In this document: positions 161 through 13,285 of the stretch, one piece after another
How positions within the stretch are numbered: position 1 is the first letter of the stretch
Layout: the number at the start of each line of letters is the position of its first letter
Assembly: GCA_946480015.1 (NCBI GenBank)
Contig: CAMLIL010000113.1
Coordinates: forward strand, 1 to 15,867
From: an uncultured Oxalobacteraceae bacterium
Lineage (GTDB): Bacteria; Pseudomonadota; Gammaproteobacteria; Burkholderiales; Burkholderiaceae
Reading direction: 5' to 3'
DNA: 15,867 bases
The notes under the pieces: generated by a model
Databases searched by the model: none
The model's input: only the letters and a program-made list of their open reading frames with translations
What the model was told of the DNA's origin: nothing
Translations under genes and position numbers: made by a program

Positions 161-1735
161 GTGTCTGCGCAAAGGTTTTTCAATTTGAGAACTACTCTCT
201 TCGCTCAGCGCGAACCCTGGCGATTAAGCACTGCGCTGTCGGTCTCCTTGCTAGCTCACGCGCTGCTGTTGAGCGTCACCTTAGGTGGTCAGACATTCGG
301 ACTTCCTGGCCTAAACTTTCCCTGGAAAGAAAGGCGTTTGGGGGCCGATGATTTGCGCATTCTTCTCGCGCCGCTGCGGCCCGCGGTGCCTGCATCGGCA
401 AGGGCACCAGCGCCAGCAGATACTTTGCCGGCTGAAATGCCCAAACCGGTGCTCGCCGCAGTGGAACAGCCCGCAGTTGGGAGCAACGAGACATCAATGT
501 CTATGTCATCCCCCACCGTTGGACATAGCGAGGTGGCAGCCGTACTGCCCGCGCCCCCGATAGCCGCGCCGACGCCAGCAACCGTTCCCGCGCCGCATCA
601 GGAGCCGGTCATGACGGCACCAACGCGGCCCGACGTGAACCTGCCCACCGCGCCACCGGTGAGAGCGCCTGCAACCTCGGTGGCGCGAAATACGCCAACC
701 CAGGGGAGTGAAGTACCTGTACCCAGCAATGCAGCGCAGAAGCAGATCGACCAGGATACGCAGGAGCGGGCGCTTGAGCAGGCCAGGCTCGAGCGTGAGA
801 AGCAGAACGCGGAGCGACTACGACAGGCGGAACTGATGGCGGACGCGCGGCGAGAAGCGGCGCGGCAGGAGCAGCTACGACAAGACGCGACACGCGCTGA
901 GCAAGCGGCCAAAAGCGAAGCGGCGCGAATCGAGGCCGAACGTCAGGAGCTTGCCCGGCAAGAGGGTCTGCGTCGAGAGGCATTGCGACAAGAACGGGCA
1001 AGGCAGGACGAAAAGGCGCAGCAGGAGGTCGCTCGGCAGGAACTGGAACGGGCCGAGGCTGCGCGACTGGAAGCTGCACGCAGAGAAGCCGCACGACAAG
1101 AACAGACAAGGCAAGCGCAGCTTGAAGCAGCGCGCCAGACGCAGCTAGATGCCGCGCGACAAGACGCAGTAAAGCAAGAGGCAGCACGACGAGACGCAGC
1201 AAAGCAGGAGGCTGCTCAACAAGAACGGGCAAAACAAGAGCTAGCGCAGCGGGAACGGACTGAGCAGGAGGCGCAACGCGAGGAGCGGCTGCGCGCTATC
1301 GGGAAGCAACTCAACGAGGAAGCGGCCCAGCGCGACGCAGCGTTGAATCGCCCTTCACGCTCGCTGCAGCCCAACGTAAGCAGCCTTCGCCGCGGATGGC
1401 TCTTCGATCGCGCCGATCCGAACACCGATCTCGTCCTCTACGCGGAAGCCATGAGCCGGAAGATCGAGATGAATATGACGTTCGACATGGTTCGCGAAAC
1501 GGTGAAACGGCCTCACGTCCCGCCGGTGGTAACGGTCGCAATCCGCGCAGACGGCTCAGTAGAGAAAGTGACTTTCGTGGTTTCGAGCGGTGTGCCCGCA
1601 ATCGACGACGCGATACGAAAAGTCGTCGGCAGCCAGGCGCCCTATACCGCGTTCCCGCCCGCCTTGGCGCGTCAGTACGACGTGATTGAAATTCGTCGCA
1701 CATGGGTATTCGACATGGCCATCCGGCTGCAGTGA
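161..1735 (+). CDS. TonB-family energy transducer with TolA-like coiled coil
   Basis: Likely inner-membrane energy transducer that passes proton-motive force from ExbB/ExbD-type motors to outer-membrane receptors. One N-terminal membrane segment (about residues 23-42) holds the S-x3-H pattern of TonB anchors (S29, H33). A Pro/Ala-rich linker (about 70-190) follows, then a very long Ala/Arg/Gln/Glu coiled coil (about 195-400) as in TolA. The C-terminal TonB-like domain (about 417-524) ends in FDMAIRLQ. The start is uncertain. The GTG at 161 has no good Shine-Dalgarno, and a TTG at 185 preceded by AAAGG is an alternative that keeps the membrane helix. No exbB/exbD neighbour is present, so its partner system is unknown. 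TolA is the main alternative, but no tol genes are nearby. Confidence 0.8.
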   Translation: MSAQRFFNLRTTLFAQREPWRLSTALSVSLLAHALLLSVTLGGQTFGLPGLNFPWKERRLGADDLRILLAPLRPAVPASARAPAPADTLPAEMPKPVLAAVEQPAVGSNETSMSMSSPTVGHSEVAAVLPAPPIAAPTPATVPAPHQEPVMTAPTRPDVNLPTAPPVRAPATSVARNTPTQGSEVPVPSNAAQKQIDQDTQERALEQARLEREKQNAERLRQAELMADARREAARQEQLRQDATRAEQAAKSEAARIEAERQELARQEGLRREALRQERARQDEKAQQEVARQELERAEAARLEAARREAARQEQTRQAQLEAARQTQLDAARQDAVKQEAARRDAAKQEAAQQERAKQELAQRERTEQEAQREERLRAIGKQLNEEAAQRDAALNRPSRSLQPNVSSLRRGWLFDRADPNTDLVLYAEAMSRKIEMNMTFDMVRETVKRPHVPPVVTVAIRADGSVEKVTFVVSSGVPAIDDAIRKVVGSQAPYTAFPPALARQYDVIEIRRTWVFDMAIRLQ

Positions 1736-2126
1736 AGACGACGACGTTGGCCGGCAGAGCGTCATCTATACGCCAAAACCAATATCGCCTCACACTAGGC
1801 TTGTTCGGCCAGAGGTGTTTGCCGAATCCCTTAGCAAGCGGCCGCAGGTTGGGTGGGACAAACGTGTCTGTTATTGACAAGACACCTTAGCTTGAGAGAA
1901 GCGCATCGCTGGGCCGTAATTCTTGACGTAAGTATGTGGATCGATACTTGTACTCGCGCGCTCGAGTCTTCATCGGTCTCTTCGTACTGAACTCTGACCG
2001 AGGCCGCGCTCCGACAAATAGTCAAGCATGATCGTTGGCATCCAGATCTTTTAGGCAGTAAAACCACCAATTTTGTTCAATATCTTTTATACTACTTTGC
2101 GGAGATAACTGGATCGGCTGGGCGTC
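1736..2126. other. Intergenic region with no recognisable gene
   Basis: About 390 bases between the TonB-like gene and the HNH gene. The first 13 bases belong to the 41-bp sequence that recurs at 3313-3353. Base composition becomes more AT-rich towards the HNH gene. A TATACT box at 2088-2093 could be its -10, but no convincing -35 is seen. I see no RNA gene or terminator here. Confidence 0.4.
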
Positions 2127-3185
2127 ATGCAAGTTTGGGAATTTATAGATAGTGAACAAAATTATCTATCTTGGCTCGCCAATCATCCGAAGGGGTATGT
2201 ACTAAACTCTCTAAGCCCACCCAGCGAGAAGTACCTGGTTTTACACACGACACAGTGCAAAGCTGTAAGCCAATCGAAGAAGACGGCGCATCCAGCGTGC
2301 TTTACAGGTAACGGTTACTTCAAAATTTGCGCAACCGAAGTCGCGCATCTTAAAAATTGGTGCGCGACGCATGGATTCGACGATTTTTCCTCTTATTGTC
2401 CGCATTGCCAACCGGTCGGCCCGTCTTATCCTAAACGTTTGAACTGGACTAGAGATGAGTTAATCCTCGCCTTAGACCTCTACTTCAAAGCTCCGGCGGC
2501 ACATGGCGATGACAAGCATCCCGGTGTAGTAGAGCTAAGCGAACTGCTCCAAGATCTGCCGATCCATACCCAGGCAATGCGTCTCAAGAATTTTAGGAAT
2601 CCCAACGGAGTCGGTTTAAAGCTAGTGAACTTCCAATCTTTGGATCCGGCCTATTCTGGAACCGGCATGCCGCAAGGGGCACAGAAAGACCGCGATATCT
2701 GGAATGAGTTCGCACACGATATCGATTTGCTGTCTGCAACTGCGCTCGCCATACGGGAACTCTACACAAGCTTTCAACCCAGCGATCTTGTATCGGTCGA
2801 CGGGGACGATGGCGTTGCCGAAGGAGGAATTTTGGGCGCCGCGCATAGGCGCCACGAGCGCAACAGCAAGATAGTTCGAAAGAAAAAGCGAGCAGTTTTC
2901 GCATTACACATGGCTCTGAAATGTGAAATCTGCGATTTCGACTTCGCCGCCACCTATGGCGAACTTGGCAGCCAATTCGCAGAATGCCATCACACCAAAC
3001 CAGTTTCAAAAATGCAGCTTGGTGACAAGACAAAGTTAGACGACCTAAGCATCGTCTGTGCAAACTGCCATAGGATGCTTCACCGTGGTCCTGAGCTGCT
3101 GAGCATCGCGGAACTAAAAAAGATATACGATAGCGAACGCGCGTCTCACGCCATAAAGAGCACGTTTATTGGCCCTTCTGCCTGA
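2127..3185 (+). CDS. McrA-like HNH endonuclease
   Basis: Probable DNA endonuclease of the HNH superfamily, of the kind acting in modification-dependent (type IV) restriction. The C-terminal third has a complete zinc-bound HNH core: C266-x2-C269, the E-C-H-H cluster at 286-289, C311-x2-C314-H315 and H319. The middle (about 107-215) begins WTRDELILALDLYF and contains FRNPNGVGLKLVNF, a conserved module commonly found in front of such HNH domains. The N-terminal 100 residues hold cysteine pairs (for example C91-x2-C94) and are not a domain I can name. The gene is more AT-rich than its neighbours, which suggests horizontal acquisition. It stands alone with no methylase beside it, fitting a type IV-like enzyme. 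Target specificity cannot be read from the sequence. The ATG at 2127 lacks a strong Shine-Dalgarno. Confidence 0.8.
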   Translation: MQVWEFIDSEQNYLSWLANHPKGYVLNSLSPPSEKYLVLHTTQCKAVSQSKKTAHPACFTGNGYFKICATEVAHLKNWCATHGFDDFSSYCPHCQPVGPSYPKRLNWTRDELILALDLYFKAPAAHGDDKHPGVVELSELLQDLPIHTQAMRLKNFRNPNGVGLKLVNFQSLDPAYSGTGMPQGAQKDRDIWNEFAHDIDLLSATALAIRELYTSFQPSDLVSVDGDDGVAEGGILGAAHRRHERNSKIVRKKKRAVFALHMALKCEICDFDFAATYGELGSQFAECHHTKPVSKMQLGDKTKLDDLSIVCANCHRMLHRGPELLSIAELKKIYDSERASHAIKSTFIGPSA

Positions 3186-3312
3186 TGACGCTTCAATTGG
3201 CTTACAGGGGGCTTGCCTACGATATGGTTGCCCAATAACCGCACTACTGTCGGCTACGCGAATCTGCCGAGTGCGCCAAACGCGGCGCCGGCGAGAGCGG
3301 GTGTAACCGCCG

Positions 3313-3353
3313 ATTCGACATTGCCATTCGCCTGCAGTGATGACGAAGACGTT
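3313..3353 (+). repeat. 41-bp near-copy of the 3' end of the TonB-like gene
   Basis: This stretch matches 1708-1748 at 36 of 41 positions. In frame it would encode FDIAIRLQ followed by a stop, like the end of the TonB-like protein. Sequence upstream and downstream does not match. It looks like the remnant of a second, deleted TonB-like gene. The rest of 3186-3387 shows nothing else recognisable. Confidence 0.55.
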
Positions 3354-3387
3354 CGCTTAACGGAAATACTCATTCCGGTTTGCGCCG

Positions 3388-3598
3388 TCAAAAGCTTCCT
3401 GACTTCATGCAGCACTTCTTGAAGTGTTTTCCGGAACCGCACGGGCATGGATCATTACGCCCCAGTTTCTCCAGAAGTTCTTTATCGCCATGCACGAACC
3501 GGACGCCGCGTTTAACCTGCGTTTCGGATGGGAAGCCTTTCCTGCGCTTGCGGGTGATCTCGAAAGCACTGTTGTTGTTCGATGTCTTTGGTTTTCAT
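3388..3598 (-). pseudogene. Small SEC-C zinc-motif protein, frame broken by one base
   Basis: An ATG at 3598 with a strong Shine-Dalgarno (AAGGGAGA) opens a reading frame that stops after 28 codons. The -1/+2 frame then continues without interruption into a classical SEC-C motif, [17 protein letters not shown], and ends at 3388. The span is 211 bases. Removing one base in the GAACAACAACAG tract near codons 7-10 gives a single 69-residue protein with a basic centre ([10 protein letters not shown]) and the C-terminal zinc motif. SEC-C motifs bind zinc, as at the C-terminus of SecA, and mediate protein or ribosome contact. The gene is last in the second rtcB module, 60 bases after the 273-aa gene. 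It could be a true pseudogene, a sequencing error, or a frameshifted gene. Confidence 0.7.
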
Positions 3599-3658
3599 GA
3601 TAGTTCTCCCTTGCGATGTGCCGCCTGCGCGGCGAAAAGATGCTCGTGACGGGCCAGG

Positions 3659-4480
3659 CTACATGCCCAATCCGTATTTTTTCAATTCCTGTGAACCGAG
3701 TTGCCGTTTCGAGACCGCGTATTTGTCCGGCGTGCCATACAGATCACGATTGCTCGGCTGTGCCTTATGCGTTGGCAGATCCCCGTGCTCGCGCGATATC
3801 CACTCCTTGCGCACGACGTCCCAGCAGGCGTCATGAACGGCCTGCTTCGCCACCTTGCCTTCACTTTCACGGATCTCCACTCTGGCAATCGGCAGCACGT
3901 CGAGTATCACCTCGTACCAGTTACCATCGATGCAGCGAAGCTGCCGACGCTCGTCGATATCGCGACGGCCCGCGCGTTCCTGGTCGTACCGAGCCTGAAG
4001 TTCTTGCTGACGGCGCCTGCTCCATGGGACGTGATGGCGATTGCGCAACAGGATGCCGGTGCGCGGATGGACGAACAACCCGATATCCGCCTCCTCGATG
4101 AACGAGTTCTCGCGAGGCCACCTGGTTCTGCGGAAAAGCACCTTCCCACCATCAGGTGTTTCCACCCAATGGGTATCGACGGCAACGAAATCGTCGATGT
4201 GCTGGAGGATATGCCGCTTGACCGTATTGCGGGCATCGATGGTGGCCCGAATCTCGCTGTACACCTTGTCCCACGGACGGTTCACCTGCTTCTCCAGGTA
4301 ACGCTGGAACGGAGCAAGGTTGTCGTTAAACCGCTTCCACCGCTTGGTGTATCCGCGCTTCATGCCGAGCTTGGCCGGCGCGTTTTCATCGTTGCGGAAC
4401 TTGCGGCCGTCGCGGCTATAGCCATTGCTGTTGACCAGCCGTGGCCGCTCCACGATGACCTTGAACATGTCTTCACGCAT
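3659..4480 (-). CDS. Conserved RtcB-neighbour protein of unknown function (273 aa)
   Basis: I do not know its function. It begins MREDMFKVIVERPR, and I recall similar starts in unnamed proteins encoded beside rtcB in other bacteria, though this was not checked. The start at 4480 has an AAGGA Shine-Dalgarno eight bases upstream and overlaps the end of the 58-aa gene by eight bases, so translation is probably coupled. The protein is very basic and soluble-looking, with no signal peptide or membrane helix. Residues 40-100 (GMKRGYTKRWKRFNDNLAPF, then RPWDKVYSEI and a helical stretch rich in His, Asp and Val) look like the conserved core. A second part around 130-155 has FVHPRTGILLRNRHH. RNA or ribosome binding is plausible from charge and context, but it is inference. 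Confidence 0.75.
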   Translation of the reverse strand: MREDMFKVIVERPRLVNSNGYSRDGRKFRNDENAPAKLGMKRGYTKRWKRFNDNLAPFQRYLEKQVNRPWDKVYSEIRATIDARNTVKRHILQHIDDFVAVDTHWVETPDGGKVLFRRTRWPRENSFIEEADIGLFVHPRTGILLRNRHHVPWSRRRQQELQARYDQERAGRRDIDERRQLRCIDGNWYEVILDVLPIARVEIRESEGKVAKQAVHDACWDVVRKEWISREHGDLPTHKAQPSNRDLYGTPDKYAVSKRQLGSQELKKYGLGM

Positions 4481-4649
4481 GATCTTTTCCTTCTCGTTTT
4501 TGTTCAGTAACCAGCGAACGCAGTACCTGCTTTTCGGTGCGTCGCTGCTTGCGCCTGGCCTGATGCGCTCCGTGCGCGCCCGCGTTGAGCTGCCTGGCAA
4601 CGACGGCATGCGGGTTACGCGGCTTCATTGGCTTGTTAGTCGATTTCAT
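4473..4649 (-). CDS. Small basic protein of the rtcB module (58 aa)
   Basis: A short gene starting only three bases after the rtcB paralogue stops, with an AAGGGA Shine-Dalgarno inside the end of that gene. It ends overlapping the start of the 273-aa gene by eight bases (ATGCGTGA), so all three are tightly coupled. The product is strongly basic: RNPHAVVARQLNAGAHGAHQ is followed by an Arg/Lys-rich helix (ARRKQRRTEKQ). This composition resembles small RNA-binding or ribosomal proteins. The R-N-P-H and G-A-H pattern looks like a conserved family found near rtcB, as far as I recall. The function is unknown, but operon position and coupling make it a likely real gene. Confidence 0.75.
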   Translation of the reverse strand: MKSTNKPMKPRNPHAVVARQLNAGAHGAHQARRKQRRTEKQVLRSLVTEQKREGKDHA

Positions 4650-4652
4650 GTC

Positions 4653-5861
4653 TTATCCCTTGATGCAAATGACCTGGCGCAGCGTGTGCACGACCTCGAC
4701 CAGATCCGATTGATGCTCCATGACCTTGTCGATGTCCTTGTACGCCGCCGGAATCTCGTCCACGACGCCGCCGTCCTTGCGGCATTCGACACCCTCGGTT
4801 TGCTGCGCCAGGTCGAATCGGTTGAACTGCCGCTTCGCTTCGCTGCGGCTCATGCGGCGGCCGGCGCCATGCGAGCATGAGCAGAACGACTCCGGATTGC
4901 CCTTGCCACGCACGATGTAGCTCTTGGCGCCCATGCTGCCCGGGATGATGCCGAGTTCGCCTTCGCGTGCCGAGATCGCCCCCTTGCGCGTGACGAACAA
5001 CCGTTCGCCGCCGTGCGATTCGCGCGCCACGTAGTTGTGATGGCAGTTGATCGCTTCGCCATCAAACTTAAAGGCAGGCAAATGCTGAATCAGTACGTCG
5101 GCCACGCGGCGCATCATCTCGCGGCGGTTGATGAGCGCGTAATCCTGCGCCCACTCCACTGCTTCCACGTAGTCGTCGAACAGCGTCGATCCTTCGCTGA
5201 AATAGGACAGGTCCTTGTCCGGCAGATGAATTTTGTGACGCTGCATGTCCTTGCGCGCCGCCGAGATGAAGTAGCGGCCGATAACGTTGCCGATCCCGCG
5301 CGAACCGGAATGCAGCATGATCCAGACGCGCTGCGCTTCGTCGAGACAGATCTCGATGAAGTGATTGCCGCCGCCCAGCGTGCCAAGCTGGCAGATCCAG
5401 GTCTGCGCGAACTTGTGCTGCATCTTCATGATGCCGCCGTGTTTGGCGACGATGCGGTCGAGCCGGTCGTTGAGCGGCCGGCCCACACGCGCATGCGCCG
5501 AGCCGCGCACCTTGTCCCAGGCGTGCTGTTCGAAACCGGCCGGCACCGCGGCTTCGATCGCGCTACGCAAACGCGCCAGGTTGTCGGGCAACTGGCTTGC
5601 CGTCAGCGTTGTACGGACGGCGTTCATGCCGCAGCCAATGTCGACACCGACCGCCGCCGGAATGATGGCGGAACGCGTTGGAATGACGCTGCCGACGGTG
5701 GCGCCAACGCCGGCATGGACGTCGGGCATGGCGGCAACATGAGGATGGACGATCGGCAGCCTCGCGATGTTCAGCAGTTGCTGGAGCGCAGAGTGATCGA
5801 TCTCGTCCGTGTAGATGTGCACCGGGACGCGTCCCTTGTGCAGTGTTTGTACGATGGGCAT
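4653..5861 (-). CDS. Second RtcB-family RNA ligase (402 aa)
   Basis: A paralogue of the ligase at 7247-8482. RtcB enzymes join RNA with a 3'-phosphate or 2',3'-cyclic phosphate to a 5'-OH end, using GTP and manganese. All key residues are present: D74 and C77 in VGVDIGCGMN, H167 in GGNHFIE, H184 in LHSGSRG, H275 in NCHHNY, and the guanylated H331 in CSHGAGR. The N-terminus is divergent (MPIVQTLHKGRVPVHIY instead of the APVKMWTKG type). The segment at 112-155 lacks the RGxDKGSWExPP region of the E. coli-like enzyme. These differences suggest a separate subfamily, perhaps with another substrate. Paralogous RtcBs with differing activity are known in Myxococcus. The start at 5861 has GGAAAAG upstream. 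It heads the second module and follows a terminator-containing leader. Confidence 0.93.
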   Translation of the reverse strand: MPIVQTLHKGRVPVHIYTDEIDHSALQQLLNIARLPIVHPHVAAMPDVHAGVGATVGSVIPTRSAIIPAAVGVDIGCGMNAVRTTLTASQLPDNLARLRSAIEAAVPAGFEQHAWDKVRGSAHARVGRPLNDRLDRIVAKHGGIMKMQHKFAQTWICQLGTLGGGNHFIEICLDEAQRVWIMLHSGSRGIGNVIGRYFISAARKDMQRHKIHLPDKDLSYFSEGSTLFDDYVEAVEWAQDYALINRREMMRRVADVLIQHLPAFKFDGEAINCHHNYVARESHGGERLFVTRKGAISAREGELGIIPGSMGAKSYIVRGKGNPESFCSCSHGAGRRMSRSEAKRQFNRFDLAQQTEGVECRKDGGVVDEIPAAYKDIDKVMEHQSDLVEVVHTLRQVICIKG

Positions 5862-6191: not shown

Positions 6192-7211
6192 TCAGCATTT
6201 GCTCACCACGCAAGTCTGAACACCATCGCGCTCGCCAAACTGTACCCGCACCGGCAGGAAGCGCTCAATGACGTCGGCATTCGTCTTCGCATGCATCGAT
6301 ACCGACTCGGTCGTGAAGCCGCCATTGCCCGCCAGTGCCAACGGCAGCATCAGCTGGTCGGCCAGGTATTCACCGACCGCCGCGTTCGATGCAATGTAGC
6401 GGCGCGTGTCCTGCAACGCCTGCCGCGCTACCGCTTCCGCGCGTACCGATTTCTCGCCGAACGCCGTGACCACCTCGGTCACATGCTCATACTCGAGCGT
6501 GACCAGCAACGCGTTGCCCGGCCCCTGCTCGCCGGGCAATCCACGGATCAACAGCTGAGGCTCGCCCCACCCCATCCCGGTGCCGATACATTCGAGTTCG
6601 CGCTTGGCAACGCTGGCCGGCACGCCGGCGATGAAGCTTTCCGCATAGGCAGCAGTCCGTTCGCCGCGCGCCATCCATTCGAAAGGCCGCAACTGCTTGC
6701 ACGGTGCGATGTTTGCGACCACTTCGCCGCCGCCGGCCGGGTAGAACCCGAACCGGTCGATGCGGATATCGATCGCTACGCCCATATCGGCCATTGCACG
6801 GCAATAGGCGCGCTGCAGGAATTGCACAGGCGGCGCCATCGGGTTATGCGTGCCGCCGCTGACCTTGACGGTCGACGGCGTGTCGGCGAACAGCAAGGCC
6901 GGCATCAAGGTCTGCAATACCAGCGTGCAGCTGCCCGCCGTGCCGATGGCGAACTTGTAATCGCCGCCCTTGATGGCCTTCGGCGCGAAGGCCAATGCCT
7001 GCGATCCGACCGCTGCGCCCGCCACCTCCGCATCGCATACCTGAGCGGCCGCTTGCACGGCAACCAGGTGCTGACGCATCAGCCCGGGCTTGGCCCGCTT
7101 GACGCGAATGTTCTGTATGCGGAAAGGCCGGCCGGTGATCATCGACAGCGTCAAGGCCGTGCGAAGGATCTGGCCGCCGCCTTCACCCATCGATCCATCC
7201 AGTTCAATCAT
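6192..7211 (-). CDS. rtcA: RtcA, RNA 3'-terminal phosphate cyclase
   Basis: Converts RNA 3'-phosphate to 2',3'-cyclic phosphate with ATP through an enzyme-AMP intermediate, preparing ends for RtcB. The 339 residues match the family's usual length (E. coli 338). The N-terminus MIELDGSMGEGGGQILRTA is the classical RtcA signature. The C-terminal SMHAKTN segment carries the adenylated histidine (H307 here, equivalent to E. coli H309), and ERFLPVR follows as expected. The ATG at 7211 is chosen by alignment to family starts; an in-frame ATG at 7262 would add a non-homologous extension overlapping rtcB. It lies 35 bases after rtcB and is probably translated from the same sigma-54 transcript. Confidence 0.95.
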   Translation of the reverse strand: MIELDGSMGEGGGQILRTALTLSMITGRPFRIQNIRVKRAKPGLMRQHLVAVQAAAQVCDAEVAGAAVGSQALAFAPKAIKGGDYKFAIGTAGSCTLVLQTLMPALLFADTPSTVKVSGGTHNPMAPPVQFLQRAYCRAMADMGVAIDIRIDRFGFYPAGGGEVVANIAPCKQLRPFEWMARGERTAAYAESFIAGVPASVAKRELECIGTGMGWGEPQLLIRGLPGEQGPGNALLVTLEYEHVTEVVTAFGEKSVRAEAVARQALQDTRRYIASNAAVGEYLADQLMLPLALAGNGGFTTESVSMHAKTNADVIERFLPVRVQFGERDGVQTCVVSKC

Positions 7212-7246
7212 GTCTTCTTGTTCTTTCTTTTTGTTATCGGACTGCC

Positions 7247-8482
7247 TTAGCCCTTCACACACACCACCTGCTTCAAGGTATGCACGACTTCAACCAGGTC
7301 GCGCTGCGCTTCCATCACCGCATCGATATCCTTGTACGCCATCGGAATCTCGTCGATCACGTCGGCATCCTTGCGGCATTCGACGCCTTCGGTCGCCTTG
7401 ACCTGGTCGTCGATGGTGAAGCGGCGCTTGGCCTCGGTGCGGCTCATGGTACGCCCGGCACCGTGGCTGCAGCTGTTGAAGCTTTCCGGGTTTCCCTTGC
7501 CGCGCACGATGAAGCTCTTCGCCCCCATCGAGCCCGGAATGATACCGAGTTCGCCGGCGCGGGCCGACACCGCGCCCTTGCGCGTGACCAGTACATCCTT
7601 GCCGAAGTGGTGCTCCTTCTGCACGTAGTTGTGGTGGCAGTTCACCGCTTCCACATGCGTCTCGAAGGGCTTGGTGATTACCGTCCGTACTGCCGCGATC
7701 AGGTTCTGCATCATCACTTCGCGGTTCATCCGTGCGAACTTCTGTGCCCAGCTGACCGCTTCGACATAATCGTCGTAATGCTTCGTGCCTTCCGGCAGGT
7801 ATGCGAGATCCTGATCGGGCAGGTTGATGAAGTGCGTACGCATATCCTGCTTGGCCAGCTCGATGAAGTACGAGCCGATCGCGTTACCCACACCGCGCGA
7901 ACCCGAATGCAGCATGAACCATACCGACCCGGCCTCATCCAGGCAGATCTCGATGAAGTGGTTACCGGTACCCAGCGTTCCCAAATGCTTGTAGTTGTTG
8001 GTGTTCTTCAGCTTCGGCGTCTTCTGGCAGATGACGTCGAAGGCGTCCTTGAGCTGCAGCCAGGCTTCGTCAACCGGCTTCGGCGGCGTTTCCCACGAAC
8101 CCTTGTCTCGGCCCCTGAAGCCGCGGGTCTTGGGCGACATGCCGTGCGGTACCGATTTCTCGATCGCGCTGCGCAAGGGGCCCAGATTATCCGGCAAGTC
8201 GTTTGCGCTCAGCGTGGTCTTGGCCGCCATCATCCCGCAGCCGATATCGACACCGACGGCAGCGGGAATGACGGCGCCCAGCGTCGGAATCACGCTACCG
8301 ATCGTCGAACCCTTTCCCAGGTGGACGTCCGGCATCACCGCGATGTGCTTGTAGATGAAGGGCATCATCGCGGTGTTGGTCAGCTGGCGCCTGGCATCGA
8401 CCTCGACAGGCACACCCTTCGTCCACATCTTGACCGGACGTCCGCCTTCGATATTCAGCACATCGTATTCTTCGTGTTTCAT
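7247..8482 (-). CDS. rtcB: RtcB, RNA-splicing/repair ligase (E. coli-like)
   Basis: GTP- and Mn-dependent ligase that seals RNA 3'-phosphate or 2',3'-cyclic phosphate ends to 5'-OH ends, for example broken tRNA or rRNA. At 411 residues it is close to E. coli RtcB (408) along its whole length, including the VKMWTKGVPVE start. Key residues are D79 and C82 (VGVDIGCGM), H175 (GNHFIEI), H192 (LHSGSRG), H284 (NCHHNY) and the guanylated H340 (CSHGAGR). The ATG at 8482 is preferred to the in-frame ATG at 8488, because GAAG sits eight bases upstream of 8482 but only two upstream of 8488, and the shorter form matches the family. It lies 28 bases downstream of the tRNA-mimic Y RNA in the same transcript, so the RNA must be processed from, or coexist with, the mRNA. 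Confidence 0.97.
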   Translation of the reverse strand: MKHEEYDVLNIEGGRPVKMWTKGVPVEVDARRQLTNTAMMPFIYKHIAVMPDVHLGKGSTIGSVIPTLGAVIPAAVGVDIGCGMMAAKTTLSANDLPDNLGPLRSAIEKSVPHGMSPKTRGFRGRDKGSWETPPKPVDEAWLQLKDAFDVICQKTPKLKNTNNYKHLGTLGTGNHFIEICLDEAGSVWFMLHSGSRGVGNAIGSYFIELAKQDMRTHFINLPDQDLAYLPEGTKHYDDYVEAVSWAQKFARMNREVMMQNLIAAVRTVITKPFETHVEAVNCHHNYVQKEHHFGKDVLVTRKGAVSARAGELGIIPGSMGAKSFIVRGKGNPESFNSCSHGAGRTMSRTEAKRRFTIDDQVKATEGVECRKDADVIDEIPMAYKDIDAVMEAQRDLVEVVHTLKQVVCVKG

Positions 8483-8510
8483 GATCATTTCTTCGTTTCT
8501 ATAAATAAGT

Positions 8511-8631
8511 CGATGACAAGTGGCGATGAAATGTCGACTGAGCTACCGGCTTGCACCGGCCCGGGATTGAACCGGGGACCTCCGGAGTGGACTCCGGCGC
8601 TCTATCCATGTAATTCCATCTGCATTCATCA
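8511..8631 (-). ncRNA. yrlA: Y RNA 3: YrlA-type RNA with a circularly permuted tRNA mimic
   Basis: The Y stem has outer helix TGATGA/TCATCG (8631-8626 with 8516-8511), conserved ATGC and CTTG internal-loop strands, and inner helix GATGGAAT/ATTTCATC (8620-8613 with 8532-8525, one G-T). Inside is a full tRNA-like fold in permuted order: D-stem strand GAGC (8602-8599), anticodon-like arm CCGGAG-TCCA-CTCCGG (8597-8582), T arm CCCGG-TTCAATC-CCGGG (8576-8560), acceptor-like stem CCGGT/GCCGG closed by GCAA (8559-8546), TA, then D-stem strand GCTC (8543-8540). So the acceptor end is sealed and the D loop opens into the Y stem. Bacterial YrlA RNAs encoded beside rsr are known tRNA mimics that bind Ro/Rsr and effectors. 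Confidence 0.88.
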
Positions 8632-8642
8632 AAAAGGTTACT

Positions 8643-8688
8643 GGCGACACGCGGCATTCGCCGCACCGTTTCCGGCACTCGTGTCACC
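8643..8688 (-). ncRNA. Structured RNA segment (possible three-way junction) between Y RNAs 2 and 3
   Basis: On the minus strand GGTGACAC (8688-8681) pairs with GTGTCGCC (8650-8643). It encloses CCG-GAAA-CGG (8675-8666), with a GNRA loop, and GCGGC-GAAT-GCCGC (8664-8651). It lacks the spaced Y motifs, so it is not a fourth Y RNA by that test. It may be a processing spacer or a 3' domain of Y RNA 2. Confidence 0.5.
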
Positions 8689-8692
8689 CGTG

Positions 8693-8923
8693 CTACGTTG
8701 CCCCGACAAGAATCGACAGGACATTCTGCCAGACCTGCTCGGCCTGACAGGCCGGATTCGAACCGGCTTTACCAGATGTAGTCCTGCCCGCATTCGGGGA
8801 AACCGTTACTTGAGCCGCTGCACGACAAGCGTTCGATGTGACGAGACATACTGACAATGTAGTCACACCGGCATTCGTACCCCGCTCAAAATCTGCTCTT
8901 CCTACCCTGATTACCCAGCCCAT
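8693..8923 (-). CDS. Doubtful 76-aa ORF reading through Y RNAs 1 and 2
   Basis: The ATG at 8923 follows a near-perfect Shine-Dalgarno (AGGAGACAGTT) that overlaps the rsr stop codon region. The frame starts MGWVIRVGRADFERG and stays open across Y RNAs 1 and 2 to 8693. The non-coding structures in the same bases have much stronger support, so the full ORF is probably not conserved. The start region may still be translated, perhaps to couple translation with Y RNA processing. Confidence 0.25.
   Translation of the reverse strand: MGWVIRVGRADFERGTNAGVTTLSVCLVTSNACRAAAQVTVSPNAGRTTSGKAGSNPACQAEQVWQNVLSILVGAT
8701..8799 (-). ncRNA. Y RNA 2: Y stem with a T-arm-only tRNA-like insert
   Basis: It has the same plan as its neighbours: outer helix CCCCGA/TCGGGG (8799-8794 with 8706-8701), ATGC and CTTG internal-loop strands, inner helix CAGGAC/GTCCTG with flanking G-T and G-C pairs (8789-8781 with 8722-8714), and TACAT after the inner 5' strand. 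The insert carries a perfect T arm, GCCGG-TTCGAAT-CCGGC (8767-8751). Another possible stem follows (CCTG...CAGG), but there is no clear anticodon or D arm. It likely binds Rsr, with a reduced tRNA-like effector domain. Confidence 0.8.
8820..8880 (-). ncRNA. Y RNA 1: compact 61-nt Y stem without tRNA-like part
   Basis: Outer helix GTACGA/TCGTGC (8880-8875 with 8825-8820), ATGC and CTTG internal-loop strands, then a 9-bp inner helix CGGTGTGAC/GTCACATCG (8870-8862 with 8842-8834) with TACAT following. The apical part is only about 19 bases and can form a short ACAT/ATGT stem. Both helices differ in sequence from the other two copies but keep pairing. It starts 52 bases after the rsr stop codon. 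Confidence 0.8.
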
Positions 8924-8932
8924 AACTGTCTC

Positions 8933-10483
8933 CTAAATCTGAATCGACTGGATTTCTCCAACCCAGTGCGCCGCACTCAACTGGCCAGCCGCGAATGCCG
9001 CGATGATGTTGAACACGTCATCCGAAAAGCCACCGATGTTCAGCACGTCGTGGCATTCCGCCGCCTGGGTCGTGCCATACGGCGCAATGTCGATGCACAC
9101 CAGCTTCGCGTTCCGGTTGCGCTTCTTGAACACTTTCCATTCGCGCATGGTCGCTGTGGCTCCATGGCGCGTCGCATCGACCCACGACTGGTTATCCGAC
9201 ACGAACACGACCAGGTCGGCGTGTGCCTTCTTTTTGTTCAACATGGCCAGCGGCGCGCTGCAGTTCGTGCCACCGCCACCGATCGATGCCAGCTTCTGCG
9301 CGTTGGTCATGACCGTGTCGCGCGGATTAAGGTTGATCTCCACCACGGCGTTCTCGAACGGCAGGACGGTCGTGGCCGCATTCTTGCGCAACATCGCCGC
9401 AGCCACCAGCGCTGCAACGTCGATGCAACGCACCGCCGTCGACGCGGAACCGCGGTAACCCGTCACCGGCGAACCCATCGATCCCGACACGTCCGGGCAA
9501 ACGACGACCCTGCCTTCGATCTGCGGCACGTTGGCCAGCGCGATTTCCAACGCGTCCTGCAAGGCTTCGCGGATCGCCAGCGGCACATCCTGCGTTGCCG
9601 AACGATAGGCCGACATCAACTGGTACGGAAATACCTTGGCCTTCGCAATCGCATTCGCATCGCACAGCTTGGCGGCAATCGCCTCGACCATGCCGGGCAA
9701 GGCGTACACGCCATGCCGCGCAAACGTGTTCAGGTTCATGCGCACCATCTGCCAGCCGCCTTGCCGCGCAATCTGCGCCCAGGCCTCGGCGGACAGATCC
9801 AGCGCGGTCAGCATCTGGAACGGCACCTCCGGCAGCGGCTGCGACCGATCCCGCTGGTAGGCCTCAAAGGCTTTCACAATCGGCGGCAGCGCATCAGCGT
9901 TATGTGGCTTGCCGATCAACCAGGCGAAGAAGGCTTCGCGCCATACTTGCGCTGGCTTCGGGTGCACCATCTTCACGACATCGGCCAGCGAGGGCGCCTT
10001 GCCGACGGCAGCCAGCAGCGCTTTTTCCGACGCCGTGTTCAGCCACTTCTGCACCAGCTTTTTCGGACGCGTGCCGAGCGATTTGCGGCCGGCGGCACCG
10101 GAGCGGACGATCTGCACGAAGTTACGCAGCATCTTGCCGCTGTCGATCACGCGATCGAACACCGGCGTCAATTCGGCCGCGCCCCTGGCGGCCAGGATGG
10201 CGGCCAGCAAGGCCGGCATGTCCTTCATGTAGCCGCGCTCGCGGCAGTAGATCGCTGTCTGGGCGATGAAGCGGGCATCGACTTCCTTGGCCAATTCCAG
10301 CACGGTATCGAGGTGCGTTTCCGCATTCGCATAGTACGTATCGTTCAGGCAGCCGGTCGCGGCGTATTGCGCCAGCCGATGCTGCGGCGACAGTTGATAA
10401 GCGGCCGCCTGTTCGACATTGACCGCATTCGCGGTCGGCAGGAGTTTCCCCTTCAGGCTTTGGAACAAGCTGGCGTTGGCCAT
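8933..10483 (-). CDS. rsr: Rsr, Ro60-like TROVE-domain RNA-binding protein
   Basis: Bacterial orthologue of the Ro60 autoantigen. Such proteins form a HEAT-repeat ring that binds Y RNAs on its outer face and threads the single-stranded ends of misfolded or damaged RNA; in Deinococcus and Salmonella it partners with PNPase. The 516 residues have an N-terminal TROVE region (from about residue 20, with LAQYAATGCLNDTYY and CRERGYMKDMPALLAAIL) and a C-terminal von Willebrand A-like domain. That domain has an intact MIDAS metal site: D331-x-S-x-S335, T406 and D430. The ATG at 10483 has GAGGA seven bases upstream; the frame is open further upstream but without homology. It is first in the sigma-54 operon rsr-Y RNAs-rtcB-rtcA, 28-odd bases after the predicted transcription start. 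Confidence 0.95.
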   Translation of the reverse strand: MANASLFQSLKGKLLPTANAVNVEQAAAYQLSPQHRLAQYAATGCLNDTYYANAETHLDTVLELAKEVDARFIAQTAIYCRERGYMKDMPALLAAILAARGAAELTPVFDRVIDSGKMLRNFVQIVRSGAAGRKSLGTRPKKLVQKWLNTASEKALLAAVGKAPSLADVVKMVHPKPAQVWREAFFAWLIGKPHNADALPPIVKAFEAYQRDRSQPLPEVPFQMLTALDLSAEAWAQIARQGGWQMVRMNLNTFARHGVYALPGMVEAIAAKLCDANAIAKAKVFPYQLMSAYRSATQDVPLAIREALQDALEIALANVPQIEGRVVVCPDVSGSMGSPVTGYRGSASTAVRCIDVAALVAAAMLRKNAATTVLPFENAVVEINLNPRDTVMTNAQKLASIGGGGTNCSAPLAMLNKKKAHADLVVFVSDNQSWVDATRHGATATMREWKVFKKRNRNAKLVCIDIAPYGTTQAAECHDVLNIGGFSDDVFNIIAAFAAGQLSAAHWVGEIQSIQI

Positions 10484-10522: not shown

Positions 10523-10538
10523 TGCAAGGGGTGTGCCA
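10523..10538 (-). promoter_or_regulatory. Sigma-54 (-24/-12) promoter of the rsr-rtcBA operon
   Basis: The minus strand reads TGGCACACCCCTTGCA, an exact match to TGGCAC-N5-TTGCA with -24 GG and -12 GC correctly spaced. The transcript would begin near 10511, about 28 bases before the rsr ATG. A sigma-54 activator (RtcR) is encoded divergently, as in E. coli and Salmonella. Confidence 0.93.
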
Positions 10539-10679: not shown

Positions 10680-12293
10680 ATGAAGAGCAAACGCATCGTC
10701 GTGATCGGTTTCATCGGCACCCAGCTCGACGGCGGCAAGGGCAGCGTGCGCTGGGAGAAGTGGCGGCCAACCGTTGCGCTCACCCAGCACGAAGATGTGG
10801 TGGTCGAGCGGGTCGAGTTGTTGTTCAACGGCCGCCATGGCGAACTGACCGAGCTGATCACGCGCGATATCGCATCGGTATCCCCGGAAACCAAAGTCGT
10901 CGCGCACCGCATGCAGATAAACGACCCGTGGGACTTCGAGGAGGTGTACGGCAGTCTGTTCGATTTCGCCAAGGGCTATCCCTTCGATCCGGATAACGAG
11001 GAATACTGGATCCACATCACGACCGGCACGCACGTCGTGCAGATCTGCATGTTCCTGATGACCGAGGCGCGCTATTTCCCCGGGCGCCTCTTGCAGGCCT
11101 CGCCACCGCGCCGCCAGACGATCGGCGACCCTGGCAGCTACACGTTGATCGATCTGGACTTGTCGAAGTATGACCAGATCGCGCAGCGCTTTTCGCGCGA
11201 GCAGCAGGAAGGCGTCGCGTTCCTGAAGTCGGGCATCGCCACGCGCAACGCGCGCTTCAACGCGATGATCGACGAACTCGAGCGCGTGGCGATCAAGTCG
11301 AAAGCGCCGATACTGCTGATGGGGCCGACCGGCGCCGGCAAGTCATTTCTCGCGCGCCGCGTGTATGAGCTGAAGAAAGCGCGCCACCAGCTCGACGGCA
11401 AGTTCGTGGAGATCAACTGTGCGACACTCCATGGCGACGGTGCCGGGTCGACCTTGTTCGGCCATATCAAGGGCGCGTTCACCGGCGCCGCGTCCGATCG
11501 TCCGGGACTGCTGCGCACGGCGCACAAGGGCTTGCTGTTCCTTGACGAGATCGGCGAGCTGGGCCTGGACGAACAGGCGATGCTGCTCAAGGCGGTCGAA
11601 GAGAAGCGCTTCCTGCCGGTCGGCAGCGACCATGAAGTACAGAGCCACTTCCAGCTCATTGCCGGCACCAATCGTGACCTGTCGAAGGAAGTCGTGGCGG
11701 GCCGCTTTCGCGAAGACCTGTATGCACGGATCAATCTGTGGACTTACGAGTTGCCGGGCCTGGTGGACCGCTCCGAGGATATCGAGCCGAACATCGATTA
11801 CCTGCTCGCGCAGTTCGGCGCCGAGAACGGCGAGATGGTGCGGTTCAACAAGGAGGCGCGCGAGCGTTACATGCGATTCGCCATGTCGCCCGAGGCACGT
11901 TGGGTCGGTAACTTCCGCGACCTGTCTGCGTCGGTGCTGCGCATGGCGACGCTGGCCGAAGCCGGGCGCATCACCGATACGATCGTCCAGGACGAGTTCG
12001 GGCGCTTGCGGCGCCTGTGGCATCACTACACCGAGGGAAATGCCGGTGCGGGCGATGTCGATCTCGACGCCGTGCTTGGGCGGGAGGCGGTCGAGCAGCT
12101 CGACTTGTTCGACGCGATGCAATTGAAGGCGGTCATCGGGATCTGCCGGCAATCAAAATCGATGTCGGACGCGGGACGCAAACTGTTCGCGATGTCTCGC
12201 GAGGCGAAGGCGCGGCCTAATGATGCCGACCGGTTGAAGAAATATCTGGCGAAGTTCGGTTTAGCCTGGGAAGCTGTCAGCTTGTTACAATAA
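10680..12293 (+). CDS. rtcR: RtcR, CARF-AAA+ sigma-54 activator of RNA repair
   Basis: Transcription activator of the rtc operon. The N-terminal CARF domain (about 1-180, with HITTGTHV near 112-119) senses an RNA-derived ligand; damaged tRNA fragments are reported activators in Salmonella. The AAA+ domain has Walker A GPTGAGKS (215-222), the sigma-54-contacting loop GAFTGA (265-270), Walker B LLFLDE (285-290) and REDLYAR (344-350) containing the candidate arginine finger. A Fis-type DNA-binding region occupies about 475-530. At 537 residues it aligns with E. coli RtcR throughout, including the start. No clear Shine-Dalgarno precedes the ATG, so expression is probably low. It is divergent from rsr and shares the 196-bp control region. 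Confidence 0.97.
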   Translation: MKSKRIVVIGFIGTQLDGGKGSVRWEKWRPTVALTQHEDVVVERVELLFNGRHGELTELITRDIASVSPETKVVAHRMQINDPWDFEEVYGSLFDFAKGYPFDPDNEEYWIHITTGTHVVQICMFLMTEARYFPGRLLQASPPRRQTIGDPGSYTLIDLDLSKYDQIAQRFSREQQEGVAFLKSGIATRNARFNAMIDELERVAIKSKAPILLMGPTGAGKSFLARRVYELKKARHQLDGKFVEINCATLHGDGAGSTLFGHIKGAFTGAASDRPGLLRTAHKGLLFLDEIGELGLDEQAMLLKAVEEKRFLPVGSDHEVQSHFQLIAGTNRDLSKEVVAGRFREDLYARINLWTYELPGLVDRSEDIEPNIDYLLAQFGAENGEMVRFNKEARERYMRFAMSPEARWVGNFRDLSASVLRMATLAEAGRITDTIVQDEFGRLRRLWHHYTEGNAGAGDVDLDAVLGREAVEQLDLFDAMQLKAVIGICRQSKSMSDAGRKLFAMSREAKARPNDADRLKKYLAKFGLAWEAVSLLQ

Positions 12294-12340: not shown

Positions 12341-13285
12341 GTGAAAAAAACCTCACACTATCGCAATCCTGACGCGATCCTTGTCTGGCTCCAGTCTGGC
12401 CCTGGACTGCCTGAATTGCGTGAACGCTTTCCCCAAGAGTGGGAAGAAGTCTCGGCGGAAGTGACCGATGTCATCCGATCAGGACGTCCTGAACAATTGA
12501 AGGCGATGACTGATGCGCTAAATCGTGCGGAGGTACTCGCGCCCTCGAAGAACGGCGTTGCATCGAAAGCCGGTCGTGAAGCACTGGTCTCCAAGGCCAT
12601 TCGCGGCCGCATGCTCGCCGAGTACGTTAAAACGCAGAGCCTGGCTGTTGCCGCCGGTAAGACTGGACGATTCAAACTCGGCCTGTGGAGCGGTTTCTTA
12701 GCCCAAAAATTGCTGTTCGCCCGGGATTTTGAGCGCCGCCCGGTATCACGGCGCCTGTTTCGCCTGGTGTGGCCATTCGTGTGGCAGCGCCGTCTCGTCA
12801 TGCCCTTGGTTCAACAGCGCGGCATTTACTGTTTCTACTCAAAGGAACTCGTGGCGGCACTCGCCTCGCTCATCGGCGAAAACGTATGCCTGGAAGTGGC
12901 GGCGGGGGATGGAACGCTTTCGCGCTTCCTTCGCGAGGGCGGTGTGAATGTCATCGCAACCGATAACCGCAGCTGGTCTCATGCGATCGACTACCCGGAG
13001 GATGTGCTTGCCTGCGATGCAGTCCAATCTCTGGCACGATTCAGTCCAGGTGTAGTGCTGTGTTCGTGGCCTCCTCCGAATAATGGCTTCGAACGCGCGA
13101 TTTTCGCCACGCCAAGCGTCAATACCTATATTGTCATTGGAAGCAAGATGCGTTCAGCGTTTGGAAACTGGGGGGCCTATGCGGACCAGAATAAATTCGA
13201 GATGAGTGAGGAACCTGGCCTTGCGGAACTCGTGCTCCCGCCGGAGCTGGAGTCAGCCGTTTACGTGTTTCGGCGGCGATCCTGA
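12341..13285 (+). CDS. Class I SAM-dependent methyltransferase-like protein
   Basis: Probable methyltransferase of unknown substrate. The C-terminal half has a Rossmann pattern: motif I EVAAGDG (185-191), an acidic end of the second strand in IATDNRSW (D208), and SWPPP (242-246) at the motif IV position. The N-terminal 150 residues are basic and helical (for example WPFVWQRRLVMP) and match no domain I know; they may contact nucleic acid or membrane. The GTG start at 12341 has no good Shine-Dalgarno, so the true start could differ. It lies 47 bases after rtcR on the same strand with no terminator between, so co-transcription is likely. Whether it acts in RNA repair or modification is unproven; it could also be an unrelated neighbour. 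Confidence 0.65.
   Translation: MKKTSHYRNPDAILVWLQSGPGLPELRERFPQEWEEVSAEVTDVIRSGRPEQLKAMTDALNRAEVLAPSKNGVASKAGREALVSKAIRGRMLAEYVKTQSLAVAAGKTGRFKLGLWSGFLAQKLLFARDFERRPVSRRLFRLVWPFVWQRRLVMPLVQQRGIYCFYSKELVAALASLIGENVCLEVAAGDGTLSRFLREGGVNVIATDNRSWSHAIDYPEDVLACDAVQSLARFSPGVVLCSWPPPNNGFERAIFATPSVNTYIVIGSKMRSAFGNWGAYADQNKFEMSEEPGLAELVLPPELESAVYVFRRRS

Follow-up and report, generated by a model that had tools for sequence, protein, structure and literature searches.

A bacterial Y RNA beside rsr that probably carries a second circular permutation of the tRNA body, with the Y stem entering the D loop

Canonical YrlA is a permuted tRNA in which the Y stem stands where the anticodon arm would be. The circular permutation between YrlA and tRNA has already been described (PMC11472068). 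The resemblance of YrlA to tRNA lies in the D, T and acceptor arms, and it is a substrate of the modifying enzymes DusA and TruB (PMC8394870). Binding of Rsr to the lower Y stem has been described in Deinococcus, Salmonella and Mycobacterium, and in Deinococcus Rsr is tethered to PNPase by the Y RNA (PMC4726728). A study in Salmonella reported that cleaved tRNAs, acting through RtcR, turn the operon on, and proposed YrlA, of which it detected no cleavage fragments, as an anticodon nuclease competitor (PMC7790460). A second permutation, via the D loop, was not found described in the open literature; the main Y RNA papers lay outside that search, which leaves the absence unproven.

The locus compared here lies in a window (the whole stretch of DNA that was analysed, 15,867 nucleotides from an uncultured Oxalobacteraceae bacterium), in which the minus strand carries, in order, rsr, three Y RNAs, rtcB, rtcA and a second rtcB, with rtcR divergent. 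The genes and the promoter-like site are as follows.

10680..12293, plus strand: rtcR (PF06956)
10523..10538, minus strand: sigma-54-type site TGGCACACCCCTTGCA, just upstream of rsr
8933..10483, minus strand: rsr (bacterial Ro60), with TROVE and Ro60 vWA domains; the start ATG at 10483 was picked by eye
7247..8488, minus strand: first copy of rtcB (PF01139)
6192..7262, minus strand: rtcA (PF01137), start uncertain
4653-5861, minus strand: second copy of rtcB, downstream of rtcA

TGGCACACCCCTTGCA matches the sigma-54-type promoter consensus exactly, and it is its position that carries weight, because 0.76 such sites are expected in the window when one mismatch is permitted. The Rsr of the window groups among those of Oxalobacteraceae (Massilia and relatives) on the Rsr tree described below. 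Two ORFs are without a Pfam match, one of 316 aa at 3659-4609 (minus strand), after the second rtcB, and one of 314 aa at 12341-13285 (plus strand), which follows rtcR on the same strand.

Between rsr and the first rtcB lie the three RNAs.

8820..8880, minus strand: Y1, a plain YrlB-like Y RNA with an outer and an inner Y stem, without a tRNA-like domain
8701..8799, minus strand: Y2, a Y stem with a T-arm hairpin and a long acceptor-like hairpin, with no clear separate D arm
8511..8631, minus strand: Y3, a probable D-loop-grafted tRNA-like Y RNA (D-type), from model scores, fold, covariation and ARAGORN rotation

A first-pass annotation had read this region as three Y RNAs from a repeated motif, GAATGC-N9-TACAT, matched downstream by TCG-N3/4-CTTG-TC and by outer helices that keep pairing. 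Exact copies of the motif were confirmed with starts at 8876, 8795 and 8627, all on the minus strand (three observed vs. 0.01 expected, with none of 200 shuffles holding three), and permitting two mismatches adds one match only in the window, near chance level. The downstream motif was likewise found in each of Y1, Y2 and Y3, whose outer helices each pair 6/6 with G-U counted. Of the features by which bacterial Y RNAs are recognised, an adjoining rsr/Ro60 gene is present for the Y RNAs of the window and of its relatives, and a long 5′/3′ stem with conserved motifs is present in all three.

The relatives are the best 80 loci of 170 rsr relatives, cited below by locus number where needed. Among these 80, a relaxed motif occurs close to the end of rsr or beyond it in 76, and the near-exact motif, GAATGC-N9-[ACT]ACA[AGT] within 2.5 kb downstream of rsr, occurs at least once in 78 and at least three times in 37, with a maximum of 7, over a background of 6 matches in the remaining ~745 kb of these loci. 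The number of Y RNAs in the window is therefore ordinary, and the earlier remark that three exceed the one or two known falls away. The only loci without the near-exact motif are two from Cardiobacterium, in which the Y-like matches precede rsr. Cardiobacterium hominis carries two rsr loci (L049, L063), with canonical-type matches upstream of the gene and not downstream. Arrays of five to seven motifs were observed downstream of rsr in L010, L012, L057 and L009 (Undibacterium, a Burkholderiales MAG). A separate observation concerns L055, an Acidobacteria MAG, in which many tRNA-like matches at 1391-4784, upstream of rsr, probably represent a tRNA gene array.

Against Rfam, Y1 is nearest to YrlB (RF02565; 31.2 bits, under the gathering score of 97), and both Y2 (43.3 bits, E 6.5e-7) and Y3 (34.4 bits, E 2.5e-4) are nearest to YrlA (RF02553), whose gathering score of 69 is missed by these two and also by some canonical relatives. 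Covariation among relatives of the three RNAs, a check that the annotation had named, showed double-change cells above shuffles in every class: 137 vs. 42.8 shuffled for Y3 (22 sequences, 94.4% of cells paired), 15 vs. 6.3 for Y2 (11 sequences, 95.9%) and 36 vs. 12.2 for Y1 (12 sequences, 97.6%), each reached by 0/500 shuffles. The Y1 and Y2 sets were 12 and 11 sequences hand-picked from 260 Y RNA matches, window included, and the count of pairs with double change is weaker, being reached by 9/500 shuffles for Y2 and 18/500 for Y1. The Y2 class holds ten further members of equal length (L001, L002, L005, L006, L011, L013, L015, L021, L035 and L041), and the GG after TACAT, kept in 10/11 aligned Y2-class sequences, could pair with the T loop. 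The three RNAs would be expressed, bound by Rsr and functional. Their identity as Y RNAs, given at first pass, is borne out by position, motif, nearest Rfam families and covariation, although it passed over the tRNA-mimic permutation of Y3, the T-arm/acceptor-like hairpin pair of Y2 and a canonical-YrlA-like remnant between Y2 and Y3.

The module order of YrlA (T arm, then acceptor hairpin, then the complete D arm, the anticodon arm being replaced by the Y stem) is not that of Y3. In the minimum-energy fold of Y3, GAGC pairs with GCUC and encloses three hairpins, and the two D stem strands sit on opposite sides of the tRNA-like module.

8606..8607, minus strand: GG, equivalent of tRNA G18G19, right after TACAT; GG stands there in 22/22 D-types
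8599..8602, minus strand: D stem 3′ strand GAGC, pairing with 8540-8543; 96.6% of cells paired in this helix
8582..8597, minus strand: anticodon-arm equivalent, 6 bp with the 4-nt loop TCCA (fold and covariation)
8560..8576, minus strand: T arm CCCGG TTCAATC CCGGG (fold, R1 model, covariation and signature residues)
8546..8559, minus strand: acceptor stem, 5 bp capped by GCAA (covariation and fold)
8540..8545, minus strand: U8 A9 and D stem 5′ strand GCTC (R1 model and signature residues)

The 5′ half would run from the Y stem through the D-loop GG, the D stem 3′ strand and the anticodon arm to the variable region, and the 3′ half from the T arm through the GNRA-capped acceptor stem, U8 A9 and the D stem 5′ strand back to the Y stem. 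The predicted fold of Y3, its covariation, its tRNA signature residues, its permutation and its conservation beside rsr are computed from sequence, and, so modelled, Y3 is probably a Y RNA that bears an almost whole tRNA body, circularly permuted in a second way, with the Y stem inserted in the D loop.

The permutation was scored with two models made from tRNAs of two genomes, with no Y RNA in the training; ten tRNAs of equal D-loop length were used, one of the 11 permutable tRNAs being left out for its shifted D loop. In R1 these tRNAs are cut at the D loop (76 positions), and in R2 at the anticodon (59 positions). Y3 scores 54.6 bits with R1 (E 1.4e-14), ranking second of 171 R1 matches at E up to 10 in the window and the 80 loci (875,918 bases), and 27.8 bits with R2, i.e., 26.8 bits lower, whereas the canonical YrlA of L001 goes the opposite way, with 52.0 bits for R1 and 60.8 bits for R2. 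The discriminator is the R1 minus R2 difference rather than R1 alone, which is unspecific: canonical YrlAs reach up to 52.2 bits (L080 6705, L053 7021), apparent real tRNA genes 42.2 bits (L002) and the probable tRNA array in L055 47.2 bits. In Pseudomonas, at least three canonical RNAs (L064, L070 and L078) favour R1 by 3.2-3.6 bits despite their canonical order, and the apparent tRNA genes in L002 and L055 likewise score higher with R1 than with R2, for which reason the surrounding Y stem is part of the D-type definition. Twenty-two Y-stem-bearing RNAs were chosen for R1 exceeding R2, so that their margins of 6.8 to 29.3 bits are partly selection; the Y stem motifs occur in all 22, with a TACAT variant in some.

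These 22 of the 27 eventual D-types, Y3 of the window included, were aligned by MAFFT without structure. In this alignment, 24/34 pairs change on both sides, and the 137 double-change cells compare with 22-39 in slid controls. RNAalifold, unaided, finds the Y stem, the anticodon arm, the T arm and the acceptor. The D stem was not recovered by RNAalifold in the alignment of the 22, and it shows no double-sided change there because its strands are nearly invariant GAGC/GCTC. The tRNA signature residues are A9, A58 and the GG in the D-loop half in all 22, T54, T55 and C56 in 21 each, A14 and A21 in 20 each, and U8, G15 and C48 in 19 each. The D-stem strands of L042 and L047 differ from GAGC/GCTC and are still able to pair by eye, differences that would be compensatory; in the minimum-energy fold, the D stem is formed in both L047 RNAs and absent in L042. 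L047, a Rhodospirillales MAG, carries two D-type Y RNAs (1757-1889 and 2058-2191), and the D-stem strands of the first, GGC/GCC, are presumably like those of tRNA-Tyr/Ser.

A model of the whole D-type, R3, was trained on the 22 D-types and run on the window and the best 80 of 170 loci, where it returned 260 matches to Y RNAs (E up to 0.001). At 69 bits or more, a cut fixed after the list was seen, these comprise 27 D-type RNAs in 26 of the 81 sources, and the next match below the cut (L077, 64.4 bits) was read as canonical from its sequence. Five D-types lie outside the R3 training, namely L068 at 93.0 bits and four at 69-72 bits (one each in L008 and L042, two in L047); their D-type status rests on R3 and folds, with R1 giving 28.0 bits for L068, 18.5 bits for one L047 RNA and no match for L008, L042 and the other L047 RNA. 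The D-types span Burkholderiales, Methylococcaceae, alphaproteobacteria and Desulfuromonas. In whole genomes, D-types of at least 69 bits were found in 17/294 genomes of the family of L001's genome, 2/337 of the class of L080's, 1/321 of the class of L068's, 1/198 of the phylum of L014's and 0/194 of the phylum of L048's, all of which are lower bounds since strict filters score only some candidates, in sets that include genomes already present as loci. An rsr homologue was present in 27/27 fetched survey loci, taken from 70 whole-genome matches.

On an Rsr tree of 73 rows (72 of the 80 loci and the window; L059, L060, L065, L069, L072, L074, L076 and L079 were left out, none with a D-type), D-type presence requires 7 changes vs. 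a shuffled mean of 21.4. It covers 8/8 alphaproteobacterial rows, 3/3 Methylococcaceae rows, the sole Desulfuromonas row and 14/36 rows in the clade holding Oxalobacteraceae. A viral scan with one exact D-type pattern gave no match. BLASTN of Y3 against plasmids returned four Variovorax matches spanning 40% of Y3, none of them overlying an annotated feature, and against phages one match over 47% of the query, a tRNA-Arg gene, which fits the portion of Y3 that is colinear with tRNA.

With canonical YrlA defined as R2 of at least 33 bits, a cut picked by eye, both types occur in 19/26 D-type sources, and no canonical YrlA is found at the locus in 7/26 (the window, L016, L018, L023, L025, L033 and L040). 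In L001, L005, L013 and L035, the two types are adjacent as separate RNAs. With R3, no canonical YrlA was found away from the locus in the genomes of L018, L025, L016 and L040 (the last assigned by matching score); this statement rests on R3 because R2 is unspecific on whole genomes (six genomes gave 45 matches, of which many are presumably tRNA genes in tandem), and the R3 matches away from the locus are of 22-29 bits, a range in which a weak canonical RNA could escape, as some canonical RNAs score only 29. The window itself contains one further segment that bears on this question.

8643..8662, minus strand: possible scar left by a deletion inside a canonical YrlA, GGCGAATGCC-GCG-TGTCGCC, between Y2 and Y3

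Compared by eye with L001, L005, L013 and L035, which have a canonical RNA at the same place, this 20-mer, GGCGAATGCCGCGTGTCGCC, resembles both ends of the relatives' canonical Y RNA, and it is possibly a collapsed canonical YrlA with its interior deleted.

The reading towards which we lean, with some reserve, is that bacterial Y RNAs evolved at least two tRNA permutations, one hung on the anticodon arm and one on the D loop, often adjoining in one RNA-repair operon; the D-loop form would be an undescribed class, placing the Rsr ring at the tRNA elbow, having both functional ends sealed and replacing YrlA in some Massilia. Among the alternatives, the one that survives best holds that D-type and canonical RNAs are interchangeable scaffolds of equal function whose graft point drifted neutrally. 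It agrees with the seven D-type sources lacking a canonical YrlA under the by-eye R2 cut and with the patchy spread over the Rsr tree in 7 changes. However, the retention of both types in 19/26 sources suggests separate roles, and the presence of a D-type in all eight alphaproteobacterial tree rows also speaks against free drift; this alternative is less likely than not.

It is very unlikely that Y3 is instead a canonical YrlA, built of T arm, acceptor hairpin and whole D arm, that has diverged and whose D-loop graft is an alignment illusion. The T arm and the acceptor hairpin are indeed common to both designs, and YrlA is the best Rfam match of Y3 (34.4 bits, E 2.5e-4). However, the anticodon-cut tRNA model places Y3 26.8 bits under the D-loop-cut model. 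In an Rfam comparison over six loci, canonical RNAs score 46.7-85.3 bits against YrlA and 5/8 pass 69, whereas the D-types of L001, L025 and L018 score 29.4-34.6 bits and that of L056 is unlisted at E up to 0.1. The separate neighbouring copies of both types in L001, L005, L013 and L035 argue in the same direction. In the loci scanned, the YrlA model of Rfam misses the D-type class at its cut-off.

A further alternative regards Y3 as a permuted-tRNA precursor, in which cleavage at the Y stem, ligation by RtcB to close the D loop and opening of the acceptor by end processing would yield a tRNA working in translation. Permuted tRNA genes with a D-loop junction do exist, as in the type I genes of the alga Cyanidioschyzon (position 20/21; PMC3978253), RtcB is encoded adjacent to Y3, and ARAGORN accepts rotated Y3 as a tRNA. 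In that rotation test, run without the Y stem, a tRNA was called by default in 7/72 Y3 rotations, every cut lying within the acceptor hairpin, and in 0/3000 dinucleotide shuffles; at the 50% threshold, 9 Y3 rotations pass, as do 155/3000 shuffles. Over the 22 D-types, 10 are called at default and all 22 at the 75% threshold, with mononucleotide-shuffled rotations giving 0 at default and 273 of 32,180 at 75%; most cuts lie within the acceptor hairpin or next to it, and at 75% L018 is called outside it as well.

However, the functional ends of this tRNA body appear to be sealed. The anticodon-arm loop is 3-5 nt in 27/27 D-types, with differing sequences (minimum-energy fold of the arm alone), and the acceptor is GNRA-capped in 16/22 (minimum-energy fold of pieces). 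Y3 has a predicted 4-nt anticodon-arm loop and a 5-bp GCAA-capped acceptor with no CCA, in place of the 7-nt anticodon loop and 7-bp acceptor stem of a translation-competent tRNA. Nine of the ten default ARAGORN D-type calls are without an amino acid, and L001 alone has a full anticodon, Leu (caa). Given the short loops, the capped acceptor and the one anticodon in ten calls, decoding and aminoacylation are unlikely for Y3, and the precursor reading is highly improbable. That the region is a functionless, decaying tRNA-derived or mobile element can be given almost no weight, the remnant-like 20-mer between Y2 and Y3 speaking for it, and covariation and rsr linkage across taxonomic classes against it.

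The following mechanism may be proposed. RtcR would activate the operon from the sigma-54 site, and Rsr would grip the conserved Y stem of Y3. A sealed tRNA body, with neither a free 3′ end nor a 7-nt anticodon loop, would thereby be offered to a tRNA-binding protein, candidate partners being PNPase, a tRNA-modifying enzyme (TruB, DusA), an anticodon nuclease, or RtcB/RtcA. Y3 would act as an adaptor or decoy and would do YrlA-like work with Rsr attached on the elbow side. In our view, the T-arm/acceptor half may be the contact that matters, because it is the one part that the canonical type shares with both Y3 and Y2; the main effect of the graft point would be to set the position of Rsr relative to this half.

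The two permutations amount to a natural experiment on the purpose of the tRNA-like part of Y RNAs. If both serve beside the same Rsr, the shared T arm and closed acceptor are the likely contact, and the differing attachment points predict differing Rsr geometries against the partner. The question of what the tRNA mimic targets, and why it is present in an RNA-repair operon, thus becomes directly testable.

Among known systems, Y1 is like YrlB (RF02565) in approximate size and in having no tRNA domain, and differs from it by scoring 31.2 bits against a gathering score of 97. Y3 is like tmRNA and permuted tmRNA (RF00023, RF04321) in its partial tRNA mimicry, but no mRNA part is seen in it, and the Rfam matches to these families on related loci are below gathering. 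With the type I permuted tRNA genes of Cyanidioschyzon, Y3 shares a junction in the D loop (PMC3978253), but it is attached to a Y stem and lacks an anticodon loop or acceptor end that could be used. With YrlA (RF02553), the tRNA-like Y RNA of Salmonella (PDB 6CU1), Y3 shares the GAATGC/TACAT and CTTGTC motifs of the Y stem, the place in an rtc operon beside rsr, the T arm, the closed acceptor hairpin and the D-stem sequences; it differs from YrlA in that the Y stem enters the D loop, the arms follow in another order and the anticodon arm is retained.
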